This document shows, one piece after another, positions 12,456 to 48,111 of a stretch of 64,000 nt of DNA. Positions within the stretch are counted from its first letter, which is position 1, and each line of letters begins with the position of its first letter. Source of the DNA: Cyanidiococcus yangmingshanensis (taxonomy: Eukaryota; Rhodophyta; Bangiophyceae; Cyanidiales; Cyanidiaceae); contig VWRR01000009.1 of NCBI GenBank assembly GCA_013995675.1, positions 62,001 to 126,000 on the forward strand, in the 5' to 3' direction. Position numbers and translations under genes: made by a program. A model generated the notes under the pieces. It did no database searches, was not told the origin of the DNA, and was given only the letters and a program-made list of their open reading frames with translations.

Positions 12456-12753
12456 GACACCGCATGGACTGTTTCAGTGACGCGCTCGACACCGAGGGCC
12501 ATGCGTGCAGGTCGCGTGACACCACGCGCTGCCGCCACTGGCGAGCGATGCGCGCGCGCCATTTGAATTTCGAACGATCGAGCGCCCCCTGCTCGCTCGT
12601 TGCAGGACGAACGAACGAACGAACAAACAAGCTCGTTGGCGGACTGAGCAAAAAAAGAGTCGTTGGCGAACGAACTCGTTGGCGAACCAGAGGCAGAGAC
12701 GTTCCGCGGGAGGCGTAGCCTAAGGCTCGCACAAAGTCTGGTTGTACGAGGCG
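12456..12753. promoter_or_regulatory. Shared divergent promoter of MIS12 and gamma-tubulin
   Basis: This 298-bp interval separates the two start codons. It contains a (GAAC)n tract at 12608-12624 and three direct copies of TCGTTGGCG (12633-12641, 12660-12668, 12676-12684). The core TTGGCG resembles, but does not exactly match, the E2F half-site consensus. Co-regulation in the cell cycle is an inference from position and gene function. Confidence 0.5.
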
Positions 12754-14287
12754 ATGCCACGTCAAGTCCTCACGCTGCAAGTTGGTCAGTGTGGCAACCA
12801 GATTGGTTTCGAGTTCTGGAAGCAGTTGTGTCTGGAACATGGTATCGGTCGGGATGGTCGACTAGAGCCCTATGCTATCCAGGGTGTCGACCGCAAGGAC
12901 TGCTTCTTCTACGAGGCAGACGATACGCGCTATGTGCCGCGTGCACTGCTGATCGATCTTGAGCCACGGGTGATTCAGTCCGTGAAGAACTCAAGTTTCG
13001 GGCCGCTGTTCAATCCGGAAAATTTTTTTCTGGATATTCGAGATCGTGGCGGTGCAGGCAACAATTGGGCTAGCGGCTACAGCCAAGGTCAGGCACTCGA
13101 TGAGCTTCTATTCGATATGATTGATCGAGAGGCGGAGAACGCAGACTCTTTGGCTGGTTTCCAGCTTTGCCATTCGATCGCTGGTGGAACAGGAAGCGGG
13201 CTTGGATCATATCTCATGGAGCAGTTGCGAGATCGATATCCGAAGCAGGTCCTGCAGACATACTCGATTTTCCCGAACCAGTCCTATGGTCTGGGTAGCG
13301 GTGAACGTCACGCAGACGCGAGAGAGCATGGCAACGGTGGCGGACTCAACACGGGTCTGAGCCCCACAGACGAAGATGACTGATATGAACGCGCTGCTCA
13401 GTGACGTCGTCGTGCAACCCTATAACTCGTTGTTGACGTTGCGACGGCTGGTAGAATGTGCTGACTGCGTCACCGTTCTCGATAACACCGCATTGAATCG
13501 AATCGCTAGCGAGCGTCTGTATGTGGAGAACCCGAGCTTCGACCAAGCCAATGCGCTCGTGTCGATGGTCATGGCCGCGTCCACCACGACGATGCGATTT
13601 CCAGCTTATACTCACCATGATCTTCTCGGAATCGTGTCCGCCCTAGTGCCCCTACCTTCATGTCACTTCGTCGTAGCCAGTTGTACGCCACTCACAATCT
13701 ACACCGGGAATCGTGCTGATTCGGGCAGCCCGAAAACGTTAGGGGCCGGTCTCGAGACCCGCAGCACAGACGCTCTGCAACAGGTTTTACCGGTCGCCGA
13801 GAGCCGCATTCGCAAAACGTCCGTCTTCGACGTCATGAGACGCCTTGTCCAGCCAAAAAGCCTCATGGCAAACTGCTCCTTGCGTCGAGGCTCGTATCTC
13901 TCGCTTCTGAGTATCATACAGGGCGAAATCGAGGATCCGTCCCAGTTGCACCGCAGTTTGCAGCGACTCTTCGAACGCGAGCATTTCAAGTTCACACCGC
14001 TGACATCCGCAAATATGCAGGTGACGTCTGCTCGCAAGTCGCCGTATCTGAAATCTACCCATCGTGTCAGTGGCCTGTTGCTTGCGAACCATACGAGCAT
14101 TGCGACCCTCGTCGGGCGCACCATCTCAGCGTACGACAAGCTTCGTCGTCGCAATGCCTTTCTCGACAACTACTGTCGTGAGCCACCATTCGCCGAAAAC
14201 CTGGATGAGTTTGACTTGGCCAGAGAGACTGCGCAGCACCTCCACGACGTCTATTCAGAACTGGAGCAAGCGCAGGCCAGCCCTTGA
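12754..14287 (+). CDS. TUBG: Gamma-tubulin, probably with one short intron
   Basis: Gamma-tubulin nucleates microtubules at spindle poles. The start [32 protein letters not shown], the GTP-binding loop [10 protein letters not shown], and further on [39 protein letters not shown] and [20 protein letters not shown] are all gamma-type. The ATG at 12754 is used because the longer frame opens with TTG. The frame switches between QTYSIFPNQ (ending 13281) and SDVVVQPYN (from about 13400), with about 120 nt of extra sequence between them. The only GT-AG pair I found in this gap that restores the frame is 13281-13401. It gives [12 protein letters not shown] and about 470 residues. Its donor (GTCCTA) is weak, but a CTGAT branch-like element sits 18 nt from the AG, as in the PEPCK intron. 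An intron plus an assembly indel is the alternative. Confidence 0.93.
13281..13401 (+). other. Candidate gamma-tubulin intron
   Basis: A 121-nt segment whose removal joins the two halves in frame. The donor GTCCTA is non-consensus, the acceptor is CTCAG, and a CTGAT is at 13380-13384. Exact boundaries are uncertain because the conserved Gln and Ser next to the junction are partly lost in this model. Confidence 0.4.
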
Positions 14288-16313: not shown

Positions 16314-18242
16314 TCAAGGCCAGTAACAGGTATCTTCGCGGAGAATACGTTCGGGAACAAAAGGATGCGCGTCCCTGGAGCCACGTTCACGTTTGCCTCG
16401 TTCTCGATACGCTCGATCTGTTCGTTGAATATTCTCCAAGCGATCTTTTGCAGCCTGGGCCTTGCATCATGCGGGCGCTTTGCTCTCGTTCGCTCAGTCC
16501 CGGCTGCAGTGCACTCGCCAGAGCAAGCGCATCTTCTCGATAACGACTATCGCTGGGGAGTGCCTCTGTCGACGGCACTGGAAGTGGCGTTTCTCCGGCC
16601 ATATCGCGAATATCCCAGTAGCGCTGGCCGTCAAAGTCGACGAAACCAAGATAGGTGCCCTCGAAGCTGCTAAGCACGACTGGATCGAGGGCGGCACGCG
16701 AACGTAGGCGTCTGCTACCGTCTCGACTCAAATCCAGGCGTGAAGAGGAGATAGACGACGACGATAACGATGGTCTCTGCGAAAACGTCTCTGTCCCGTT
16801 ATTTGTCGGCGGCGCAGTTGGCTGCACGCTCGAGCCCCATCGAGCGTTCCGACTCATCAGCGCTCCTCCAGTCAACAGATGACCATGGCGTAGAGGCTAT
16901 GGGGCCATTACGCGCGCCAAAGTCTGCCAAGAGCTGTTTCACTTGTCGACGAGTGATGCGTTTGCGTCGGTGCGGTCGTAGTGGCGGTTCCCGGGGAGCA
17001 TCAGCCTCTCCAGGACTCGCACTTGACTCGCCACTGGCGATATAAGCCGCAGTCGGACTCTGAGGTGCATCGACACTAGCTATGATTCCTCGAAAGACAT
17101 CAGTGGGTATCAAACGTCCTGAAGCAGCCGTAGCAGCGCTGCCTGTCGCAGGCTTACCTGACGAGGAGCCAACCATGCGGCTCTCTGTAGCTGGGTTTCT
17201 GCTGTTCGCTCCAGCGCCGGTGTTGCGACCACCGAACATGCGACCGAACCCGCGAGCAACGCCGCGCAAAGTCCCGAAAAAGCCAGCTTTTTCGCTGTTG
17301 AGCAGCATCACCGCCACGAGTGCGCGCTCCGGCTCAACAAACGTCTCACTGCTGCGTCTTCGCTCCGTATTCTCTCCGTCAGACAGCGAGGCGCGCGTCG
17401 GTGCATCCGGGGCTGCCTGATGACGGGGAGGCTCATACACAAACACCGCTTTTCCCAGATACTCTAGTCGCCGCTCACCGAAAACAATCCCGTGAATCTT
17501 CATATAGGGGAGCCAGAACACAATCCGCGATCCATCGAGAAAGCTCACAACATTCACCCCGAGACGCTGAGCACGAATCGCGTTCTCGAAAAGCTGCACC
17601 CGTGCACTATAGGCACCGAAACCGGTGAACTCGTAAGAGCCGTCAGAGGAACGTATGCGCCAATGTGTAACTGGCGGATGATGACAGGTCTGCTCCAGAT
17701 AAATACGCGTTCCGTCGCTCGGCATGTACGCCTGAAAGGTTTCCCCAAGAAGCGGATTAAACGGCTTGAACATGGTCGCAGACTTGTGCAAACCTGCGAT
17801 CGCGAACGCGATCGTGTACTTGAGGCGTTCAAGGGTATCTGTCGCCGTTGCCGCTGCTTTCAGCAGCGTTGAACAATAAGCCCAATCATCTGTGAGACGT
17901 TGGAGGAACGAGCGCGGCTCAAAGAGACGGATCGGTAGACTTACATTCACGAGATCCTTTGCCCTCGATAAAACTGGACCCAACCTGCCGTAACATGTCG
18001 CGCACGACATGCCGCTGACGCTCCAACTCTGCCCGATCAGTAAAACCAACTCCACCAGCGCTCGCGGCGTACGGCACTCGATACCAATCACGCCGACTCG
18101 AAAGGTATTGGATCAGCTCTGGGGATGTTGCTCGAGGCGAAGCCCAGGCCACGGGCGCTTCTTTTCCGTTGCTGCGCTGGTCCGGCTCTTCGCTCTTCCG
18201 CAAACGCAGCGATGGCGTCGGTTTCGGCCCTGACAGGTCCAT
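16314..18242 (-). CDS. Oxysterol-binding protein-related protein (ORP/Osh)
   Basis: ORPs move sterols and phosphoinositides at membrane contact sites. The lipid-binding domain is clear: KDLVNVSLPIRLFEPRSFLQ, then FKPFNPLLGETFQAY, the family fingerprint EQTCHHPPV, then FTGFGAYSARVQL, IHGIVFGERRLEYLGKAVF and NSEKAGFFG. The C-terminal strap is FEGTYLGFVDFDGQRYWD, LPSDSRYRED and KAQAAKDRLENIQRTDR. Between GFFG and FEGTYL lies an insertion of more than 150 Ser/Ala/Arg-rich residues that most ORPs lack. No PH domain is seen. The frame changes near 17955 (AAAGG context), near 16800-16870 and near 16470; family motifs continue across each, and the last piece ends at 16314. About 640 residues. Start at ATG 18242. 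Confidence 0.85.
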
Positions 18243-19151: not shown

Positions 19152-20283
19152 CGCTGGGCCCTGGACTCGTTTCGATCGGCGTGCGTGCGTGCGTGTAGCT
19201 CCAGGTTTTGTCCACAAAAAGCGGCTCGAGACTGCTGTTCACGTGGCGCGCAAGCAGGCACCGGTTGTGAACTGTCAATCGTATTTCGGCGCCTTTGTGG
19301 ATGGAGCGTAAACCGATGCTTGCTGCTTCAGTGGAAAAAAGTTCATTCTGTAGAGGGCGAAACGTTGTGTTTCGTGGAGGCGCTCGTTCAAGAAAGAACT
19401 ATCTTGACCGTTTCAATGACGATGCCACTGTGCTGATGCCTCAACCGGAATGTGAGTTGGAATAGAGCAGCGTTTCTGATTTAGATGCAGCTGAGCTAAA
19501 ATGTCGGAAAGACGCCTCTGGTGCTGAACATCGAGACTCGGAATTCTGGCGCTGAACGTTCGTTCGTATTGGGCTGCGCCCTGTCCCTAAAATCCGACCC
19601 GGATGCAGCAAGGATGCGCAACGTCCTGGGAAACCCATCCCGCAAGAGCGTACCTCTAACCACTAGTGAGCGGCCACCTGCGACGCCCAGTCGTGTGACT
19701 CGCTCGCTCGAACACCATCGTGGCAACCCGCACAGGCCCAGCGGACGTAAATACTACCCTGAGACCGTGTTGATCGCAGTCGCTGTCCTTCGAGGCACCG
19801 ACATGCCCGAAAAACGCGATACTCTGCTCGCGATGGAGACGTCACCGACTGGGTAGACGACATCGACAACGACGTCGGCAGAGCAAGACCCAGAGCACTG
19901 CGCTGTTATCCGGCCTGCATGCATATCCATCAAGATACAATTCAACGCTCCACTTTTGGACGAGACAAACTTGGAAACTACAACGGTGGTTTAGATGTAT
20001 GAACCTGATGACCGAAAAATAGAACGCATCGGAAAAAGATCTTCAGGTGAATGCATCGGGCATGTCGCGTGCACCTGTGGCTACCTGCACGATCCGATAC
20101 AGGTGTCGTACTCAAAAAGCGTCTCATCCGAAGATCATCCTTACTGCACTGGCATCCACAGTCATCGAGGTATGTTTATGGATAGCTCACAAACGACATC
20201 GATAAGCTCCATAGAGCAAGCAATCATCGTAAATGCATGATGAATCAAACCGAAACCATGTATCCGTACGCATGGGTGACGCT

Positions 20284-20457
20284 CACCATCACCGGTCTAT
20301 ATAACAGTATCCATTCGAAAATGAATCATATTCGTAAGTGTCTCCTCCCGGGCCGTCTACATGTAACGGTTGTTGACGTTCACCATCACCGGTCTATATA
20401 ACAGTATCCATTCGAAAATGAATCATATTCGAAAGTGTCTCTTCCCGGGCCGTCTAC
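20284..20457 (+). repeat. Two-copy 97-bp-period direct repeat containing TATATAA
   Basis: Copies begin at 20284 and 20381 and match over about 77 bp with about two differences. Each contains CACCATCACCGGTC followed by TATATAAC, then CCATTCGAAAATGAATCATA (with a short inverted ATTCgaaaatGAAT) and CCCGGGCCGTCTAC. The TATA element lies about 270 and 170 bp before the Hog copy 1 start codon, so this may be a duplicated core promoter. Confidence 0.8.
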
Positions 20458-20562: not shown

Positions 20563-22348
20563 ATGCTACGCTGCTCACTAGTAAGAAATTTGCTCCCGCT
20601 AGCATTTTGTTGCGTATGCGTCTCTGTGTTCTATACACGAATATGCGTTGGCAAAACACCTATGTTTCGCGTCACTCCGTGCGATCATGACGGGGAGGTG
20701 CCACCTACCGAACGCTCGCCTGTCGCATCCACCACAGTGTCGTTGCGACAGGCCAACGTACTAAATGGAACCGTTCCGAGTTTGCAGTATCGATCTAAAG
20801 GTGTCGAGCGTCCGGTCGGGATACTCGAGTTCTCGTTACCGTCGCTGCCGCAGGTCTCGTTCGGTCCTATCCCGTCTCTGAATGCGCAGATTCCAAGCAT
20901 ACCCACGCTCGCGTATCCTTGTTGTCTTTCCTGTTGTGATCGTGACTGCTGGTGCTGTGGCTGCCCCACGCTAACGACACCTTCAACGCATCGACCGTCC
21001 CGGACGCGCTCGCGAGCTGCATCGGGCTCGTCGTCGCCTCTGTCAACGACACCACTTCCGGTATCACCACCATACAAGCCGACCAGTACAGGTTTCTTTT
21101 GTCAAAGTGGTAGCGGAATTCAAGCTCGATGGGTCTGGGTAAACGAAGAGTCCGGTCTCGTCGAGTGGAGGCTCAGCAACCCCACTGAAACAGACGGGGT
21201 CGTGGTTCTCAACCGCGGCGTCGTCGGCAGCGGCTGGTACGTCCTTTGGCAACGCGTTCTGGCCAGCGTACCTGGAGACCGGTCTCACGCATATAGGCAC
21301 CGGTCCGTACAGCCCTATCCAGGGACACCAACAAAACCTACCACTGGCTGTGATCGGCCCTCAACAGCCAGGTATAGCGTTCGTATTCCCGCTTCGAGCT
21401 GGTACTCAAGTTACGGTCGACGAGGGTGGCTACGCTGGGTCTCAGCCCTACTGCCATGAACTCGTGGACGTGCGCTTCCTGTACAACGCGCCATATCAGG
21501 TCACCTACAACGTCGAGTTTCAGTGTCGTGACTTTGCAGACACCGCAGTCTGTCCACCGAACCCGTACACGAACACGTTTCCCGTATACATGCCAATCGA
21601 TGGCTCTGTGCAGGGCGCGTACGGGCCCTCGACCGGTGACCTCTTGATGCCGGCGATCATCGTGCGCACCCGACCGCAGTCCCCTCGACAGGGTCACTGT
21701 TTGCCAGGGAGTGCGTACGTGCGCACGAGCAACGGCTCGATGAGGGCGCTACGCGAACTGCAGACTGGTGAGTGGATTTGGACCCGCTCGCTCTCCGATG
21801 CTGGTCACCAGCTGCTCACACGTGTCTACGCCTTCGCCGACTACGATCCAGAGGCGCAGCATGTACCCTATTTGCGTCTCGTCACAGAAAGAGGTACTGT
21901 GGATTTATCGCCGCATCATCTGGTGTACGTGAAGAAGTCTTCGGATACAGCCATGGCATTTGTACCTGCATCTGACATCCGTCCCGGTTCGGGACTCATG
22001 ACAGACGACGGGAGCGTTGCCTATGTGCGCCGCATCGAGACCATGATTTCAACGGGGGCATTGGCGCCACTTACGGAAGCGGGGACGCTTCTCGTCAACG
22101 ACCATCTGGTTTCCTGTTACAGTGGCCGAGTCTCGCAGCCGTGGGCGCACACCTCCTTCCTACCGCTCCGTGTCTATCACCAAGCTATGGGGTATGTCCC
22201 AAATAGTCTACGGCGGCGAGCTGGGCGTTGGCTGCGTCTATCCACAGCAACGACGCCGATGAGAACCGGCATCCACATCTACGCGCTATGGCTTATGCAG
22301 ATGTGCCGGATTCTCGGACCACTCTGTCCTGCTCGAGACATTGCTTGA
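20563..22348 (+). CDS. Hog-domain (hedgehog-type Hint) membrane/secreted protein, copy 1
   Basis: N-terminal signal anchor at about residues 4-26 (VRNLLPLAFCCVCVSVFYTR), a Pro/Ser and Cys-rich stretch, then an unnamed globular domain shared with copy 2 (VEWRLSNPTETDGVVVLNRG, later NAFWPAY, LVDVRFLYNA and VCPPNP). The C-terminal Hog/Hint domain starts at the Cys encoded at 21698 (HCLPGSAYVRTSNG). It has VYAFADYD, the SPHHLVYV histidine motif (Ser where hedgehog has Thr), APLTEAGTLLVNDHLVSCYS with the second key Cys, WAHTSFLPLRVYH, and a TGIHIYALWL tail like the hedgehog sterol-recognition end. Hedgehog Hog domains cut themselves and transfer cholesterol to the N-terminal part; activity here is inferred. 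One frame change lies at about 21217-21235, between NRG and GTSFGNAFWPAY; there is no room for an intron. Copy 2 reads through intact at this point. Confidence 0.8.
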
Positions 22349-23812
22349 GTCGACTCCCATGGAGAGCAACCGGAGAACGCTTGCCACGCTTCGACAACCA
22401 GCGAGCCATTGGACGGATCCTGAACTACGATGACAGCTCGCTTCCTGGAACAGAGTGTATGTTACCTCTTCGTTAGCCCCTAAAAGAGAGCGTATGGACC
22501 GATGACTCCCTGATGACCTGATTGCCTCATGACTGAAGATGCAACCCATCGGCATCTATTCGCGGAACCTTTCGCAGACAGTTCGAGGCAGTGCTGTCGA
22601 GCGCAGTGATAACAGGGCGGGCACAAAAAGCTCTATGCGCTCAGGGACAATCGCATTGCACCTGACCCGGTAGACGGCTGGCGATTGACTCGAGAGCAGG
22701 ATGAGTTCCCTGTCTTTGAGATCTCGCCGCTTTCGAACGCGCTCAATGTCTGCTCCAGACGACGAAACATAGACCTCAGTCTGGCTAGCGGGTGCTCGAT
22801 AAGGCGGATCAGTCTGTAACGTCGTACTTGTGTTTCTACAGCGAACAGCCGACATACAAACCATACGCTGGACTCGTACGCTGCATCAAGAACGATCCGA
22901 TTGTTTCGCGTTTGGACCGATGCAAGATCCCTGGGACTCCACGATATCATCGCCGATTCTTGAAAGAGTCCCGCCTACGCTAAAGACGCCTCTAGCGCTG
23001 AGGATCGTGGACCCGCCTCTAAATCCTGCGCAGACAAGAGTGCGTTCAGGAGAGAATTTTTCAAAACTTGGCAGCTCAGTTTACTCAAGTTTGCCTATGG
23101 TATCGTGTCGTGGCGATATCGAATCCAAGCGACGCCGTTGTAACTCACGCAGAGCACGCTTGTTTTAGGTCTGGAGTGTCCAACGTGGTCGAACGCGATT
23201 CTTCCAACGGCGGCTGCTGGATCCGAAACTCAGCTCTTCCGTATGTGACTCAGCGCAGCGTTCCCCAGTTTAAAAAAGGTACCTGTTCTGTCGGGACGGA
23301 AGCCGATCTGAGCGTGTGCTTGTTCGGCCAACCCAGAAACGAACAGCGCTCCAAGCAGAGAAAGTTCTCCGCCCACCGCTTTGAGTCATCAAGTGGCTTG
23401 CCGCCGCAAATAACTCGAGCATCTTCTATAATCATAGACCAGAACGTCTTCGCATCCACTCTATTTCCTCTGGTGATGCTATTTCCACAATCGAAAGACG
23501 CCAGGTTACCCGAATACCTAGGATCTCGGGCGTAGTCCGCTGATCAGCGCGAGCGTCCAGTCCAAAGTCACGCAGGGCATCGTCACCACTTGGTTCAGGA
23601 GCTCGCCCCGCAAGCCACCGACGCTGTCGGAAAACTCAACAACCGTCAATAGGTTGTCCTCTCGAGACGTCTCCTTTCAAACGTGTTTTCTCTTCTACAG
23701 AATCCAGCCAAACTGTCGCGACGAAATGAGTGGTTGTCCACGCGTCGGCGTAGCTGTCACCCGCCAGGACAAATTTGTCTTCTTGGCTTAGTTGCTGGTC
23801 ACGGTTCACGCA
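22349..23812. other. Spacer between the two Hog-domain genes
   Basis: About 1.46 kb with only short open frames on both strands and no recognised motif. It separates the tandem duplicates and should hold the copy 2 promoter. The duplicated TATA element of copy 1 was not seen here. Confidence 0.5.
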
Positions 23813-25294
23813 ATGTACAGACGCGGATTGCAGACACTTCTCATCCTCCTTATAGTCTTAAGCATCAGCAGCTTGGTTTACAGTGTGGCCGTCACGCGTC
23901 AGGAGATCGCCTCCTCGAGACTTGGACGGCACCTGACCCGTGCCGAAACGCGGTTTCAGCAGCGAGCAGTGCAGTTTGAGAACGATGAAAACGTTTTGGC
24001 GCTACTCGATCGCACAGAGGCGGCGCCGGCCCCTGTGAGTCCGCCGCCAGCGCCTCAGGATAACGGTAGAGAATGCGTTAGTGATCAGGGGCTACGGGTG
24101 CGCTGGGACTGGGCCAGCGAGAGTCAAGGCGTGGTGGTGTGGACGTTTCAGAACCCGACGAACGAGAGCGGCGCAGTGGTCTTGAACCGAGGCATCCTTG
24201 AGCAGCCGGGCTCAACATATTGTTTGGGTGATGCGTTCTGGCCCGCCTATATTACGAACAATCTCGCATTCATCGCGAATGGGCCCTATCCGGCCCTATC
24301 GGGAGCGAACCCGAACTTACCTCTTGCAGCGATTGGCCGGGACAGTCGGACGATCTGTTTCGTCTTCACTTTGGATCCAGGGGGAAATTTCGAACTTCCC
24401 GAGGGAGGCTTCGTGGGAATATCTCCGCAATGTACTGCTCTTTTGGATGTGCGGTTTCTCAACGACATCAACATGACGATATCATATAATCAGGCAACAC
24501 AGTGCAACGGTTTTGACGGAAACACAAATTGTCCTCCGAACCCATTACAGACCAGCATACCGCTCTACCAACCACACAGTGGAAAGGCTGCGGGAGCTTT
24601 CGAACCCACCATTTCTAGTGGCTCGGGCTTTGTGTGCTTCTCCGGTGAGTCGTGGGTAGAACGCACCGACGGGAGCCGCGTGCTCTTGCGAGACTTGCAA
24701 GTCGGCGACCAGGTCATGACGCTGTCCATGTCGACGGCGTCAGGTGGACGCGTACAGAGGCCCACGCGGGTCTCCGGTTTCGTTGATCGGCTCGTGCACA
24801 CAAAGCCTATCGCGTATTTGCGAGTCGTCACTGGAAATCATGTTATTGAGATCACCAAAAATCACTTGATTTGGGCGACAACGGAGCCAGCTGAGCCCGG
24901 TATATTTCTTCAGGCTCAGCGGCTGCACCCGGGAATGTATCTGCGCGGTGCAAGTGACGAGCTTGAGCGCATAGAACGAATCGAACGAGTCTGGCGTTCA
25001 GACGCTTTCGCACCACTCACTGACACAGGTACGCTGCTCGTGAACGGAGTTCTGGTGTCTTGCTATGGCAATCTTGAGTCACATCGAATCGCTCATGCCG
25101 CATTCGCACCGCTGCGGCTGATCCATCGATTGCAGCACTGGTGCACTGATCATCACGTGGCAGGATTTGCACTCGTCGGTGATCACCCAGCGGTTTCAGA
25201 AAAAGCATACGGTATCCACCCGTATGCTCGCATGCTGGTCAGGCTCTACGCGCTGGTACGTTTCCTATCAGGCGGCACTCTCCACACGCTTTGA
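23813..25294 (+). CDS. Hog-domain (hedgehog-type Hint) membrane/secreted protein, copy 2
   Basis: An intact 493-residue frame. The signal anchor is at about residues 4-24 (RGLQTLLILLIVLSISSLVY), followed by a short helical stalk and a Pro-rich linker (APVSPPPAP). The unknown domain (about residues 88-270: VWTFQNPTNESGAVVLNRGI, DAFWPAY, LLDVRFLNDI, NCPPNP) is shared with copy 1. The Hog domain begins at Cys275 (CFSGESWV). Asp325 (GFVDR), Thr348 and His351 (TKNHL) and Cys417 (VSCYG) sit where hedgehog has its cholesterolysis Asp, Thr, His and second Cys. APLTDTGTLLVN and RIAHAAFAPLRLIH match the hedgehog order. The end, YGIHPYARMLVRLYALVRF, corresponds to the hedgehog GIHWY tail. So both the Hint fold and a sterol-recognition-like extension appear complete. 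The first ATG is used; the longer frame opens with TTG. Confidence 0.88.
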   Translation: MYRRGLQTLLILLIVLSISSLVYSVAVTRQEIASSRLGRHLTRAETRFQQRAVQFENDENVLALLDRTEAAPAPVSPPPAPQDNGRECVSDQGLRVRWDWASESQGVVVWTFQNPTNESGAVVLNRGILEQPGSTYCLGDAFWPAYITNNLAFIANGPYPALSGANPNLPLAAIGRDSRTICFVFTLDPGGNFELPEGGFVGISPQCTALLDVRFLNDINMTISYNQATQCNGFDGNTNCPPNPLQTSIPLYQPHSGKAAGAFEPTISSGSGFVCFSGESWVERTDGSRVLLRDLQVGDQVMTLSMSTASGGRVQRPTRVSGFVDRLVHTKPIAYLRVVTGNHVIEITKNHLIWATTEPAEPGIFLQAQRLHPGMYLRGASDELERIERIERVWRSDAFAPLTDTGTLLVNGVLVSCYGNLESHRIAHAAFAPLRLIHRLQHWCTDHHVAGFALVGDHPAVSEKAYGIHPYARMLVRLYALVRFLSGGTLHTL

Positions 25295-34557: not shown

Positions 34558-35727
34558 ATGGTTATGGAGCTGTGATCAGTGCTTACTCCGGTGCATAGAA
34601 GATCAATGGACGGCGTTACAAGCGCGCGTACTCAGAACTCCTTCGGACGCCAAATGGCGCATTGTTGGGCGTGTCTGGAACAAGCCGCTGCGGGAGATGA
34701 ACGTTTTTCACACAATTTGTTCATGATCACTGTTTCGTTCAAGCGCACGCGCCGCGTCGGGCATGGATAAGAGGACGCTGTGAGCAAAAGCGTCGTCGTC
34801 AATATCCCATGTCTGGCACAGTGCGTCCCGATACTATAGCTGCTTCAGCAGTGCTAACAGGAACGGTATACGCCTGCTCCCGACTAGCGCAACCGGAGAC
34901 GCCGTGGGAATTCGTTTCTACCCGGCACTCATGGATCACCGAGATGCATTCGACACATGCGATAGTCATTGGCGCTGAACCCAGCAGACTCGGCCCAATT
35001 GGCTTTGCAGGTCTGAAACGCCCATCATCGGAATGATCCGTTGCGAGAAAGCTGATTCCGTAAGGCAATCAGTGAGATTTGGCTCAACCGGAGGATGTCG
35101 CACGGAACGGATACTGCCGATGGCCCAGTCTTTTGGACAAACCGAGGACTTTTTTCGAGCATGCGTGTCTACCGGAAGACACCTCCTCCGATCTTGGAAC
35201 AAAAGCGCAGCGTAAGCAGCCATGCATTTACATCGTTCTACAGAAAAATCACTCACGCAAAGCATCGTCTTTGATTCCTAAACAATAAGTTCGGAGCTTG
35301 ATTTCATAGGATTCGGCGAACGCCGATTACATGTTCATGCAGCTTGGTGCATACGTAAACGTCTCGCTATGCAAAGACCCCCAATGGCGGTTACCCGTAC
35401 CACGCAGATCCTTACCTGTTCACTGACCGTATGGCAGACAACCATGCGAGAACGCATCGATGGAGAGTTACGCTGACGCGAGCGTTCTCGCGCACACCAG
35501 CCTAACCACGCTGCAGCGCAAAACACGAGGTCCAGTCTCGAAAGCAGCCTCCTGACCCATTTTCAATCCCACAGACGGATCAGATATCTAAACCGAGAAG
35601 GTCCAGTCTCGAAAGCAGCCTCCTGACCCATTTTCATTTCCATAGACGGTTCAAGTAACTAAACCAAGATCGCCCCGAGCCGCAAGGGAAGTGTTTGTTT
35701 CCCGGCGCAAACGTCTCCCCTCGACCG
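34558..35727. other. Intergenic region with a duplicated segment
   Basis: No supported gene. The right part carries a 70-bp-period direct repeat (35531-35667), listed separately. Confidence 0.5.
35531..35667. repeat. Two-copy 70-bp direct repeat
   Basis: GTCCAGTCTCGAAAGCAGCC and the following bases start at 35531 and again at 35601. The first 36 bp are identical; the remainder (…CAGACGG…TCTAAACC) diverges. It lies just downstream of the G-patch gene end. Confidence 0.85.
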
Positions 35728-36385: not shown

Positions 36386-36518
36386 GTGAGTAGAGATTCT
36401 GTAGGGACCAACGATCATGAATGTCTCAGTTGGTAGAGAATCTACAATGACCAACGATCATAAATGTCTCGGTTGGTAGAGAATCTATAGGGACCAGGGA
36501 CCATAAATGTCTCAGTTG
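36386..36518. repeat. Three-copy 43-bp tandem repeat
   Basis: Units containing GTAGAGAATCTA, then GGACCAACGATCATAAATGT and CTCRGTTG. The ATCATRAATGTCTC block (or its ACCAT variant) recurs at 36413, 36456 and 36499, exactly 43 bp apart. It lies between the divergent G-patch and MIC10 genes. Confidence 0.9.
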
Positions 36519-42873: not shown

Positions 42874-45091
42874 CTATTCAGGTTGAGCAGGTACACACTC
42901 TTGCTCAGCGAGTTGATGGGGAGTTTCCGCAATTCGCGGATCAATCGTGATGCTCATACCCGCATTCTCGGATACGACCTGAGGCGAGACAGCGCCGGCA
43001 TCCTCACATTCGTCCCGGGCAGCATGCGACACAATCTGGGCAAGCTCAGTAGGCGAGAGAAGTCGATGCTCGCCATCCTTGAGGAAGCGCTCGAGACCTT
43101 GGCGCCCAACCTGTCGTCGCTGAGCGCGGAAAAGGGGCTGAAGTATCCGCTCGTCGATGCGTTGTAACCACGAGAGCCCTTCTTCCGCCGAGTTCTGCTC
43201 CAGAGCAAGCGGTTCCGCAAGGCAAGAGGACGGTCGCCCCGCCACGTGCTCCATATTGGGAGCAGTGTTTGCGTAGCCGTTCGAGATCGCCGTCATTGCC
43301 TCGTTGCTGGTCCCGGCAACTGCCTCTGATGACATAAAGACCGGTGCGTCCGTTTCAAATCCAACAAAGATCGCTGTTCGTGCTCTGCGCCCTGAATCTC
43401 CCTCCAAGCTGACCGTCGTTGCAGTCGCCTGGTCGGTTGAGCTCACTGCATCCGCGTGGACTCGAGACATTTCATAGGCGTCTGTAGACTCGGCTTGCTC
43501 GACGCGTAGCAATCGAAGCAGAGGCAAGGTGCCACCGCCCAGAACAATCACGGTGAATATGACAATGGCCAGCGTGGTGGAAATAACTGCCCGTCGTGTC
43601 TCCAGATCACGGACCATGTCGCCCGAGTTTGCCGATGGAAAGTTCAGCGAAAGCGCAAACGCGATCGCTCCTCTCAAGCCCGAGAACCAGAGTACAAACT
43701 GATTGGTTGCATTGATTTTCTCCCGACGATACCGATTCAGAACCGCTGACAATGGAAAAACGTTCACAAAGCGAGAGAGGAGCGTCAACAGAATGCCCCA
43801 AAAGACCGTTAAAAAGTGCCACGAGTGGGTAAAGAGCGTCAGCGCCAGGCCCAGATAGATGAAAATAAACGTCTCGGTGATAAACGCAATCATCTTGAAT
43901 GATTGTTGCGAGGTCAGCTTGGTCACCGACGAGAGATTGTGGTGCGTATAGTGCGCCATCATCACCCCATTGGCCAGGATACTCATGATACCACTGAGGC
44001 CGAGGCCCTCACAAAACGTGTACGGCAGATACGCCAGTAAGAGCAATGTGCTCAACTCAAGAACCGGATAACGATACAGGACGGGTGTATTTGAAGAGCA
44101 GTGCCGAGAGCATGCCGACCAGCGCGCCAATCGCCGTACTGCCCAAAAAAATATACACAAAATGGACGACCGGCTGCCACCAGGACGCAGCGCTCTCACT
44201 ACCCACCATGCCGCCAAACGTCTGAAAGAGAACGATCGCGACCGCATCGTTCAATACTGACTCGCCAAAGACCAAATAATGCAGTGTGCGGTTGACTCTG
44301 AGTGCGTTGAAAATCGCAATCGTGGCAACCGGGTCCACCGCCGAGATCAATGACCCAAAGGCGAGCGCCTCAAATAAATACAGCCGATAGGACACATGAA
44401 GGACACCGAGGAACCACATGCCCAAGCCGAAAGCAAGCGTCGATAGAATCGTCCCAAACACAGCAAAGCTGATAATTGAGCCAGCCTGAGCGAAAAAGTC
44501 ACCCTTGTTCAAGGAGTAGCCCGCTTCGAATATCACTGGAGGCAGGACAAAGAGCATGAACTGCTCCTGATTGGGTAGCGCGCGCGAAACTACCGCGTAG
44601 TCATCTCCTGCGAGCCGCAAAACCCCACCAACGGTGAGACCAATAACGACGTACACAATACAGTCCGGAAGCGCGTGAAACCCGTACTGCAGCAACAAGT
44701 ACGATAACAGTATCCCGATCAGCAGCGCAACAATTGAGTAAAAGAGACTAAGACCGAGGTGTTTCTCTGCGTGTGGGTCCGTGTGTGGCGGTCCCGCCAC
44801 GACGCCCTCGCCCGAGCCAGCAGGCTTTGGGTGACCAGCGGAGGTCGCGTGTCCCTCGGCCTCGCTCGCCGTGCTCGTCTCCGCCAGTGAGGCGTCGCTT
44901 CGCCATACCTCGCCCGCATATGCTGATGGTACGTTAACCGCTTGGACCCCAAGCGAAACCACATTTTCTTGACTAGGACGAACTTCATCTCGTGTCGCGC
45001 GACGAGTACTCGTCAACGACAAAAGCGCCAGGCCAACTATGAGCAACCCAAGCGCCATCCATCTCCAGAACCTCCAAAGCGTGTAGCTCAT
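42874..45091 (-). CDS. Na+/H+ exchanger (CPA1, NHE/NHX type)
   Basis: A cation/proton antiporter, most like the endosomal/vacuolar NHE6/NHE8/NHX group. After a signal-like first helix (ALGLLIVGLALLSL) and a polar lumenal stretch come about eleven helices. Diagnostic motifs are the amiloride-region motif FVLPPVIFEAGYSLNKGDFF, FGSLISAVDPVATIAIFNAL, the ion-site GESVLNDAVAIVLFQTFGG, SGIMSILANGVMMAHYT and FSGLRGAIAFALSLNFP. A soluble C-terminal tail follows. The frame changes once at about 44072-44092, between LLFKYT and VLYRYPVLELSTLLLLAYLP; both sides are one conserved helical region with no space for an intron. About 739 codons. The ATG at 45091 (MSYTLWRFW) is chosen because it directly precedes the signal helix. 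Confidence 0.88.
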
Positions 45092-46312
45092 TCGTCTGCC
45101 TCCGAGACTGAAAAACGAAAAGAGTTCCCCCCCATTCGCTAGTCTATGTCCGTTGTCGCGTCTCATTGGAGCACAACAATACAACTACTAGGATACGCGG
45201 ATATCGTCTCGAGCAGATGCGCATCAAAACAACGAATGCAAGCGCTGCTGCGGTTCGAACGTTCGGGGCTCGAGAGAACACGCGCGTCCAGGAGCGATCA
45301 TTTAGGTAATTCCTTTATAATTCATGATCGATCGCGAAGAAATTCCTTTACGAGCTGCGCAGCATCTCGAGCCGATGGGTGCGCGGACACGACGACCCTG
45401 TCCACTGGACGACATCGCTCGCACGACGTGCTCGTCGATCGTGTCACGACGACCTCCATGAACATGGCTCTGTATCCTGAAACCAGAACATGTTGCGTGT
45501 CTGTGAGGCGACGACCAAGCGACCGCTCGTCGCAGATGCTTCACGGGACTGGTGGCCCCGCAAGGAACCTTGTGTGCATCCATGCCTGGAATGAATCAGC
45601 GAATGGACAGATCAAGTGGACACAAGAATACTTCTGATGGCGTGTGGATAGGTAACGCTTGGCGCATCTCCAGCCGAGCTGCGTTTGCCCCCAACGTATT
45701 GCGATTGGGATCGACGACGAAGCTGGAACATTCGGGTATTGGATTGATCGTCCGATAGATGTATCGCTGGGCTGGCCTATTCCAGTGCGATCATCGCTGG
45801 GCTGGCCTATTCCAGTGCGATCATCGCTGGGCTGGGCCCACGGCCAATGCCCCGTACGCGCTCTTGTCCATCGATCTAGATGAAGCGTCATCAACGAGTC
45901 CTGCGGTATCACGTGTGTGCATACCCGTCACCGCTTGCTGGATACCCCCAAAGCGTCGAGTGCATTGTTGTACACCGAGCAGCATTTCGATTCAGGTGCC
46001 ACAGACCGTTGCGTGTGCGACACTCAGACGAACCCTCACACCAGCACATTCCTTCTGCAGACTCATCGCAACTTGCTATCGCACCGAAATTATTCAAAAC
46101 AGCGTCCGCTGGAGCAGCACCCTTTCGCCTATCGTATTGGGGGTTCGAGGGACCACACAAAGCACCCGAACGGGTCGAGGCCCGTGGGCCCCAGCGAACG
46201 TCACCATCTCGCACCGGGCATCGTTCGCCCTTCCGCGGAGCGGCACACCTCTGGGGCAGTGCCGGCACACGACGCCTCGAAGACACTGCATCAGTGACGC
46301 TATCTTCACGAT
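45092..46312. other. Intergenic region with a 30-bp tandem repeat
   Basis: Upstream of both the exchanger (-) and PEP carboxykinase (+). It contains the tandem repeat at 45763-45836. No gene supported; the long plus-strand frame at 45759-46652 only runs through the repeat and into another frame of PEPCK. Confidence 0.6.
45763..45836. repeat. 30-bp tandem repeat, about 2.5 copies
   Basis: ATCGCTGGGCTGGCCTATTC followed by CAGTGCGATC, starting at 45763, 45793 and 45823. The first two copies are identical; the third is cut after about 13 bp. Confidence 0.9.
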
Positions 46313-48111
46313 ATGTGGGCAAGAGGGCTCTGCAATAGTCTCGAGAAGGTTCGCTGGCTTCAGCGTCCCATGTCGCAGTTTTTTAGTGGCAAGGCGGTTT
46401 CGGCGTCGCTGCAGGAGTTTCTCAGCGCACGTCTGGGGTTTCCGCAGCCACCGCCTATGCTGTATCGGAACCTGCCATTCTCACAGGCGAAGCAACTTGC
46501 TCTGCAACGTGGGGAAGGAACTGAGGCCCGTGATCCGCCGGGAGCGCTCTGTGTGGACACTGGGGTCTTCACAGGTCGCTCGCCGCGTGACCGCTACATC
46601 GAGCGTCGAGAAAACTCGCCGTTTGCAGATCTCATCGACTGGGGCGAAGTGAACCAACCTATTGAACCGAGAGTCGTGGACGATCTGCAGAAGGATGTTG
46701 CGGCCCATATGGCCTCTCTGCCGGAGTGTTTTGTTTATGACGGGCTGGTTTCGAGCGGGCCGAGCCGTCTCAAGATCCGCGTGCTAACAGAGCTCGCGTG
46801 GCATCACGCCTTTGCGAGCAATATGTTCATACCGCTGGGGAGTCCAGCAGAGGAGGCTGCCTTCGGTGAGCCGGACTTTACCGTAGTCTATGCGAGCGGA
46901 TATCGAAATCGACGGTATCGAGCGATGGGACTCAACTCTGACATATTTATCGTCCTCGGTCTAGAGCGTCGATTGGCCCTTATTGCAGGTACCCATTACG
47001 CAGGCGAGATGAAAAAGTCTGTGTTCACAGTGATGAATGCAATCTTACCGACGCGGGGTATTCTGCCCTTGCACTGTGCGGCGACGCGGTCGCTGGACGA
47101 CGCGTCTCCGAACACGATTTGTTTTGCGTAAGTTTCCCAAACCATCGAGATTGACGCGTTTTTGAATGGAAAACTAACCTTCAGCATGGAGACAGTGGTT
47201 TATCAGGAACTGGCAAGTCGACGCTGTCGGCAGATCCGCAGCGGAAACTCATTGGGGATGACGAACATTCCTGGGACGACACGGCAATTCGCAACATGGA
47301 GGGAGGTATCTACGTCAAAGTGATTCGTCTCTCGCCGGAGAAAGAGCCGATCCTCTACGAGGCGGTTCGAAAGCCACACACCATCCTGGAAAATGTGGTT
47401 CTTGATAACCGCGGTGTCGTTCAGTTCGATGATGCCACCAAGACAGAAAATACCCGGGCAACGTGTCCGATTCAGAGCATTCCCCAGTGGGAAACGTCTC
47501 GTCAGGGACCGCCACCCAAGGCCTTCGTCTTCCTTGTGTGTGACGCCTTTGGTGTCCTGCCCCCGGTGTCTGTGTTGAGCCCCATTCAGGCTGCGTACCA
47601 TTTCATTCTGGCGTACACGGCGAAAGTTGCAGGTACCGAGCGCGGCGTCCAGAAGCCCACGGCCACGTTCAGCACTTGTTTCGGCGCAGCGTTCATGCCA
47701 TTCAGCGGACAAGCGTATGCAACCATGCTCTGTGACAAACTGAAGCGGCATGGAACGCGAGTCTATCTCGTCAACACAGGCTGGGCCGGAGGCAGCGCTG
47801 CGGACGGTGCTCCTCGAATGGATCTGCGTATCTCACGGGCGATTATTGACGCCATTTCCACCGACCGGATCGATACACAGAACTTGCAGGCACCAGACCC
47901 GATCTTTGGTCTGCAGGTCCCGCGAGCGGTCGACGGAGTAGACTCGCGCCTCCTGAACCCAGCGACGTTTTGGTCTGACTCGAGAGCTTATCAGCGTCAG
48001 GCGCGCCAGCTTGCGGAACTCATGCAAGCGGAGTATGCACGGAAAAGATACAATCCGCAATGGGCGGCAGGAGGACCTCTCTGGTCAACGAAGGCTGCGC
48101 AAGTCGCTTAG
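46313..48111 (+). CDS. PCK: Phosphoenolpyruvate carboxykinase (ATP type)
   Basis: Converts oxaloacetate and ATP to PEP, CO2 and ADP in gluconeogenesis or C4-type metabolism. Motifs in order: TGRSPRDRY (substrate Arg at about residue 89), AGTHYAGEMKKSVF (kinase-1a region), the P-loop GLSGTGKST (about residues 273-281), IGDDEHSWDD (Mg/Mn-binding Asp), TENTRATCPI, DAFGVLPPVS and VNTGWAGG. This is the ATP-dependent class, as in bacteria, plants and yeast. Exon 1 is 46313-47127 and exon 2 is 47196-48111, giving about 576 residues. The splice falls in the Ala codon just before the P-loop and restores CFAGLSGTGKS. The first about 20 residues (MWARGLCNSLEKVRWLQRP) could be a mitochondrial presequence, but MSQFF at residue 20 is an alternative start. 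Confidence 0.95.
47128..47195 (+). other. Spliceosomal intron of the PEPCK gene
   Basis: A 68-nt intron with perfect GTAAGT donor, branch-point-like CTAAC at 47174-47178 and acceptor GACAG. A nearer TTCAG at 47184 would break the frame; only the AG at 47195 joins the P-loop correctly. Confidence 0.88.

Follow-up and report, generated by a model that had tools for sequence, protein, structure and literature searches.

Two adjacent genes encoding hedgehog-type Hog domains with a putative sterol-recognition region and no detected hedgehog signalling domain

Proteins that end in a Hog domain like that of fly Hedgehog (Hh) and human Shh are known well beyond the animals. In 2008 Burglin described Hog proteins with unrelated N termini in many protists and in several red algae; untruncated Hogs from red algae and moss retain motifs J and K, with Ser, Thr or Asp in place of the motif-J cysteine (PMC2362128). 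Cyanidioschyzon merolae occurs nowhere in the text of that paper (0 occurrences). Its "hedgehog protein" genes were mapped to chromosome ends in 2007 (PMC1955436) and linked to H3K27me3 in 2017 (PMC5405695), and a hedgehog gene or likeness is merely mentioned in expression data from this alga (PMC12770821, PMC12112623). In 2023 the genes were counted as kelch, trefoil and hint families (PMC9812998), and in 2026 non-Hh Hogs of the Cyanidiophyceae were described as proteins without the Hh signalling domain, for which a lipid modification was suggested (PMC13353863). The counts of Hog or kelch-plus-Hog genes are 17 in Cyanidioschyzon merolae, 10 in Cyanidiococcus yangmingshanensis, 3 in Cyanidium caldarium and 2 in Galdieria partita (PMC13353863, PMC9812998). 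Hog genes in red algae, including the Cyanidiophyceae, are already in print. Here we describe two + strand Hog-type genes that stand head to tail in a 64-kb stretch of contig VWRR01000009.1 (64,000 nucleotides, hereafter the window; positions are counted from its first letter) and whose C-terminal domains carry a hedgehog-like sterol region together with its cysteine. Among the matches listed in a literature drawn mostly from outside subscription journals, none reports a cleavage or sterol-attachment test of any algal Hog, and none, in the parts searched, analyzes the sterol region of cyanidiophyte Hogs.

An earlier note on this stretch, made from the letters alone, had proposed two adjacent genes, each encoding a signal anchor, a shared domain and a C-terminal Hint domain; the open reading frames (ORFs) are at the coordinates it gave, and the layout holds, with a hydrophobic segment at the N terminus. 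Copy 2 is an ORF of 493 codons on the + strand that starts with the ATG at 23813 and whose stop codon ends at 25294. It encodes, in this order, a hydrophobic segment at the N terminus, a linker rich in P and A, the shared N domain and the C-terminal Hog domain. Copy 1 (20563-22348, +, ATG at 20563) has the same layout, but its frame changes within 21220-21256. The features are as follows.

20563..21256 (+): copy 1, N-terminal frame with hydrophobic segment, Cys-rich stretch, S/T/P-rich linker and first part of the shared domain; from the ORF, its translation and homology to copy 2
21257..21697 (+): copy 1, remainder of the shared domain, read in the other frame (within the ORF listed as 21350-22348); by homology to copy 2
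21698..22345 (+): copy 1, Hog domain; PF01079 E=3.9e-34 for the stretch alone
21698, 21839, 21908, 21917 and 22115 (+): copy 1, Hog sites Cys, Asp, Ser, His and Cys
22145-22171 and 22268-22285 (+): copy 1, sterol-region blocks AHTSFLPLR and GIHIYA
23813..24049 (+): copy 2, hydrophobic N-terminal segment and P/A-rich linker; by hydropathy
24050..24634 (+): copy 2, shared domain, mostly beta strands and one short helical turn in a low-confidence model
24635..25066 (+): copy 2, Hint part; PF01079 E=1.4e-20 for the stretch alone
24635, 24785, 24854, 24863 and 25061 (+): copy 2, Hint sites Cys275, Asp325, Thr348, His351 and Cys417
25067..25291 (+): copy 2, tail resembling a sterol-recognition region (SRR), with AHAAFAPLR (25091-25117) and GIHPYA (25211-25228); PF01079 positions 162-211, E=1.3e-6 for the stretch alone
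20277..20457 (+): direct repeat of 97 bp in 1.9 copies, containing TATATAA and lying some 105 bp upstream of copy 1

Both copies almost certainly belong to the Hog family. In each, a C-terminal region of 210-220 residues matches the Pfam profile PF01079 (Hint), whose family cut-off is 29.7 bits: copy 2 with an expect value (E) of 1.4e-33 and 116.7 bits over profile positions 12-211 of 213, and the C-terminal piece of copy 1 with E=6.5e-35 and 121.1 bits over positions 9-211. Taken alone, the Hog parts score alike on this profile (118.5 bits in copy 1, 118.0 in copy 2). The Hint stretch of copy 1 by itself matches at E=2.1e-25, and its tail after SCY at E=0.0013; this tail match, like that of the copy 2 tail listed above, stays below the family cut-off and falls at the correct end of the profile. 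A sequence search of the PDB put fly Hedgehog first for copy 2 (E=1.1e-14) and human Shh first for copy 1 (E=4.3e-14). The assignment of the C-terminal domain to the hedgehog type, made in the earlier note, thus holds. Its proposal that the hedgehog signalling domain is absent agrees with the Pfam search of the N-terminal pieces of both copies, where HH_signal is not among the matches to E 5; a match to Tox-MPTase3 (E 0.054-0.21) fell below its cut-off and was judged to be chance. The best Foldseek match of a structure model predicted for copy 2 was the Hint domain of fly Hh (1at0, E=4.7e-7), with bacterial-intein-like (BIL) domains and inteins ranking below it; with a mean predicted local distance difference test score (pLDDT) of 37, a root-mean-square deviation of 18 and a target template modelling score of 0.45, the match is weak as structure. 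No Hog-domain relative was found in viral_contigs, genome_contigs or phages, collections other than eukaryote genomes, so that the negative applies to prokaryotes and phages only; the pattern-based scans among these searches are best for close relatives.

The residues on which the hedgehog reaction depends can be followed by alignment with fly Hedgehog. Both copies keep C258, D303, H329 and C400 of the fly protein; at the position of T326, copy 2 also has Thr, whereas copy 1 has Ser. The translation of copy 2 has Cys275, Asp325, Thr348, His351 and Cys417 in the hedgehog order, as the earlier note had read them. According to a review, the hedgehog Hint domain is distinguished by D303 and C400, both of which inteins lack, and D303 activates the sterol hydroxyl (PMC9163320); the equivalents of these two intein-absent residues are present in both copies. 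Behind the Hint part, AHxxxxPxR and GIHxYA occur in both copies in the same order as in the fly. SCY and AH are 11 residues apart in fly, copy 1 and copy 2, and the gap from the R to GIH is 29 residues in the fly, 31 in copy 2 and 32 in copy 1. The blocks begin at residues 427 (AHAAFAPLR) and 467 (GIHPYA) of copy 2, where the earlier note had found them, and its view that the tail mirrors the hedgehog sterol-recognition end is sustained by this fly-like spacing and by the profile matches of the tail alone, below cut-off as they are. When each 75-residue tail was shuffled 200,000 times, AHxxxxPxR arose by chance 749 times (copy 2) and 599 times (copy 1) and GIHxY 246 and 101 times, respectively, for patterns that had been picked after the sequences were viewed. 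For human Shh, residues H374, P379 and R381 of the sterol region and the three leucines after them are described as critical in cells, and HWY as a hinge (PMC7906309); the equivalents of H374, P379 and R381 are kept in both copies. We take SCY, AHxxxxPxR and GIHxYA to correspond to motifs J, K and L.

From homology, residues and layout we infer how the protein would be secreted, cleaved and joined to a sterol, and what its N domain would do. The hydrophobic N-terminal segment would direct the protein into the secretory pathway, and the Hog domain would fold in the endoplasmic reticulum. Cys275, assisted by Thr348 and His351, would attack the preceding peptide bond in an N-S acyl shift. Asp325 would act as general base and, together with Cys417 and the AHxxxxPxR...GIHxYA tail, bring a membrane sterol to the thioester. 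The N domain would then be released as a surface or secreted protein esterified with sterol at its C terminus. Self-cleavage of copy 2 at the Cys is the step that we consider very probable. For a sterol as the acceptor the balance may lie near even or slightly on the favorable side, and the mechanism as a whole, from secretion through the N-S acyl shift at Cys275 to the esterification of the N domain with a sterol, is one that we would narrowly favor.

Several observations weigh against this reading. Where hedgehog has Gly before the nucleophilic Cys, copy 2 has Val and copy 1 His; this is the strongest argument from sequence against an efficient hedgehog-like reaction. The Trp of the HWY hinge is not kept (HPY in copy 2, HIY in copy 1). 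By eye, L382, L386 and L390 of Shh correspond to L, L and C in copy 2 and to V, A and V in copy 1, and L239 and L242 to S and V and to Y and A, respectively. Copy 1 is frame-broken as sequenced. On the side of the substrate, the sterol profiles of C. merolae are said not to be established (PMC8172173), and the KEGG phytosterol module was annotated as incomplete in all red algal assemblies of one study, though red algae do contain sterols (PMC10817344). On the other side, the C. merolae genome suggests a pathway leading from cycloartenol to cholesterol, and ergosterol has been found in both Galdieria and Cyanidium (PMC8172173); the evidence in print points in both directions, and a sterol may be available. 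What survives of the interpretation in the earlier note is a Hog domain with a tail like the sterol-recognition region and no hedgehog signalling domain found in the rest; the Val or His before the Cys speaks against full equivalence with hedgehog.

The same positions can be read differently: the Hog domain may cleave itself and pass the N domain to water or to a non-sterol nucleophile (another lipid, a sugar or an amine), with the likeness of the motifs reflecting a constraint of the fold. The absence of Gly at position -1 and the variation at the hydrophobic sterol-contact positions favor this alternative, as does the case of the nematode Hh-related proteins, in which cholesterol addition is not clear and the corresponding region was therefore named ARR (PMC2362128). 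However, D303, C400, the H-P-R motif and GIHxYA are jointly kept in two paralogues whose identity is only 36% (51/141) over the Hint part and 29% (20/69) over the tail, and we hold a non-sterol outcome to be possible, if rather unlikely.

A further alternative concerns copy 1, which could be a decaying pseudogene, so that only copy 2 works. Its first frame runs up to VVLNRG and the other from FWPAY to 22348, with 37 nucleotides (nt) between these conserved anchors. We chose the anchors and a minimum intron length of 40 nt, and an intron was ruled out because the gap is shorter than this minimum; the frame change within 21220-21256, without space for an intron, is what speaks for decay. However, the Na/H exchanger gene of the same window (42874-45184, -) is likewise split into two frames, with 13 nt between anchors and Pfam matches covering 4-202 and 203-374 of 375. 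This second break leaves no space for an intron and is likely a sequence error, and a sequence error in copy 1 is therefore as likely as a pseudogene. Copy 1 has also kept the key Hog residues except for Thr, which is Ser, and its Hog score is close to that of copy 2. We consider decay of copy 1 doubtful. By contrast, the ATP-type PEPCK gene has a gap of 68 nt (47128-47195, +) with GTAAGT, ACTAAC and ACAG, one of four fitting GT-AG pairs, and this is probably a spliceosomal intron. The tubulin gene (12724-14287, +) changes frame with 112 bases between FPNQ and LLSDVVVQ, where four GT-AG pairs are possible; the gap is either an intron or an insertion plus a frameshift. The glucosidase II beta gene has eight possible GT-AG pairs.

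That the domain is an intein, a BIL domain or a Vint domain instead of a Hog domain is very improbable and was rejected: the matches to Hint_2 lie at E 0.0062-0.15 and those to Vint, in copy 2 only, at 0.098 and 0.16, all below the Pfam cut-offs, one intein-bearing NCBIfam model matches far below its own (E 0.043), Prp8 inteins in the PDB match copy 2 at E 0.52 or worse, and the Gene Ontology annotation of C. merolae places such genes under intein-mediated splicing (PMC5405695), whereas PF01079 is better by at least 15 orders of magnitude, there is no C-extein, no His-Asn before the second Cys (VLVSCY) and no VWA domain, and an SRR-like tail and the stop follow.

The part of the proteins that would be released has no recognizable relatives in our searches. 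Both copies open with a hydrophobic stretch, which in copy 2 peaks at residues 9-27 in a 19-residue hydropathy window, and continue with a linker rich in S/T/P in copy 1 and in P/A in copy 2. Copy 1 alone has a Cys-rich patch, PCCLSCCDRDCWCCGCP (20917-20967, +), a possible acylation or metal site. The shared domain has about 190 residues, and the identity of the two copies is 39-46% over the compared pieces; up to VVLNRG, the first frame of copy 1 is homologous to copy 2 with 46% identity over 61 amino acids, linker included. Four cysteines are common to both shared domains (C88, C207, C231 and C240 in copy 2 numbering). C137 and C182 of copy 2 are apparently both missing from copy 1 (C182 by alignment, C137 by eye in the other frame), and their joint absence would fit a disulphide. 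With Pfam to E 5, neither the shared domain of copy 2 nor the second copy 1 piece matched any family; Mcp5_PH (E 0.22, first piece of copy 1) and Ead_Ea22 (E 0.14, N-terminal segment of copy 2) were below cut-off and judged to be chance. Nothing was found in this region with NCBIfam to E 1 or for this domain by sequence search of the PDB to E 10, and genome_contigs and viral_contigs, the latter searched with the domain as part of longer queries, held no relatives. The model of the shared domain, mostly beta strands, had a pLDDT of 39 and a predicted template modelling score (pTM) of 0.43, and Foldseek found no match to it at E 0.001 or better; because of this low confidence and the lack of a match, we claim no fold. 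Kelch, trefoil and VWA domains were not found by Pfam in either copy, and a diverged kelch propeller within about 190 residues is unlikely. Hog genes are mainly haploid-expressed in the Cyanidiophyceae, 8 of the 10 in Cyanidiococcus yangmingshanensis being haploid-predominant, with proteome support (PMC13353863); because of this pattern we guess that the released N domain is probably a coat or surface protein rather than a morphogen.

The pair lies 20.6 kb and 38.7 kb from the ends of the window. Cyanidiales subtelomeres average 6.7-11.8 kb, the largest being 44 kb (PMC9812998), and as the pair is more than 20 kb from both ends, it is probably not subtelomeric. A scan for the C. merolae telomere repeat, as two units with up to three mismatches, gave no match in the window, and scans with Rfam (gathering scores) and for tRNAs were empty. 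By Pfam the window contains genes for PsbP, tubulin (gamma by our reading), Mis12, the Na/H exchanger and PEPCK, and its mean GC content is about 57%; the PsbP gene and this GC content make the unicellular alga of the earlier note plausible, though not proven. A red alga of the cyanidiophyte group would fit. The 97-bp duplication upstream of copy 1 may be a candidate duplicated promoter. An oxysterol-binding-protein-like gene lies at 16799-18010 (-), with a match to profile positions 11-182 of 368, in the first half only, followed by a long unmatched tail. Tandem repeats occur at 35528-35669 (71 bp, two copies) and 36390-36518 (43 bp, three copies).

In the papers cited here, Hogs from outside the animals have no function assigned, and sterol attachment is only postulated for them (PMC13353863, PMC2362128). 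Were the proposed mechanism correct, genuinely sterol-transferring Hog proteins would be much older than animals, and the pair could date the sterol chemistry of Hogs to early eukaryotes. If the alga is in addition a cyanidiophyte, Hogs would be anchors of surface proteins in acid-dwelling cells. Because these copies retain hedgehog residues together with the two sterol-region motifs and have relatives in Cyanidioschyzon merolae, which is described as genetically tractable, the sterol question would be open to direct testing.

Compared with the non-Hh Hogs of the Cyanidiophyceae, the pair shares the C-terminal Hog/Hint domain, the lack of a hedgehog signalling domain, Pro-rich linkers with Ala or Thr/Ser, and the presence in several copies. 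It differs in having no kelch or trefoil domain by Pfam and in its distance from the window ends, whereas most known kelch, trefoil and Hog genes are subtelomeric (PMC13353863). The two genes may be orthologues of known Hog-only genes of this group, with which they are compared here by description. What they have in common with the C-terminal domain of fly Hh and human Shh are the catalytic residues as well as SCY, AHxxxxPxR and GIHxYA, all arranged as in the fly and at nearly its spacing; unlike animal Hedgehog, they lack the Hedge domain (HH_signal), their nucleophilic Cys follows Val or His, the hinge Trp is replaced by Pro or Ile, and copy 1 has Ser for Thr. The nematode warthog, groundhog and quahog proteins likewise join an unrelated N domain to a Hog domain, but their K and L regions are unlike those of Hh, whereas both regions are Hh-like in our pair, a comparison made by description only (PMC2362128). 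The Hogs of florideophytes and bangiophytes share a Hog domain with motif K behind an unrelated upstream region; they have Ser, Thr or Asp in motif J, where both of our copies have Cys, together with a motif-L-like GIHxYA (PMC2362128; the placement of J and L is ours). Because they retain the motif-J cysteine and the motif-L-like block, the two proteins would be better candidates for sterol transfer than the red algal Hogs of 2008, which lost this cysteine. Such a hedgehog-like sterol region complete with its cysteine is possibly new, and we tentatively suggest, at somewhat less than an even chance, that the Hogs of this alga, probably a red one, keep a working hedgehog sterol-transfer apparatus (motif-J Cys, K and L) that esterifies an unrelated, new domain with a sterol.

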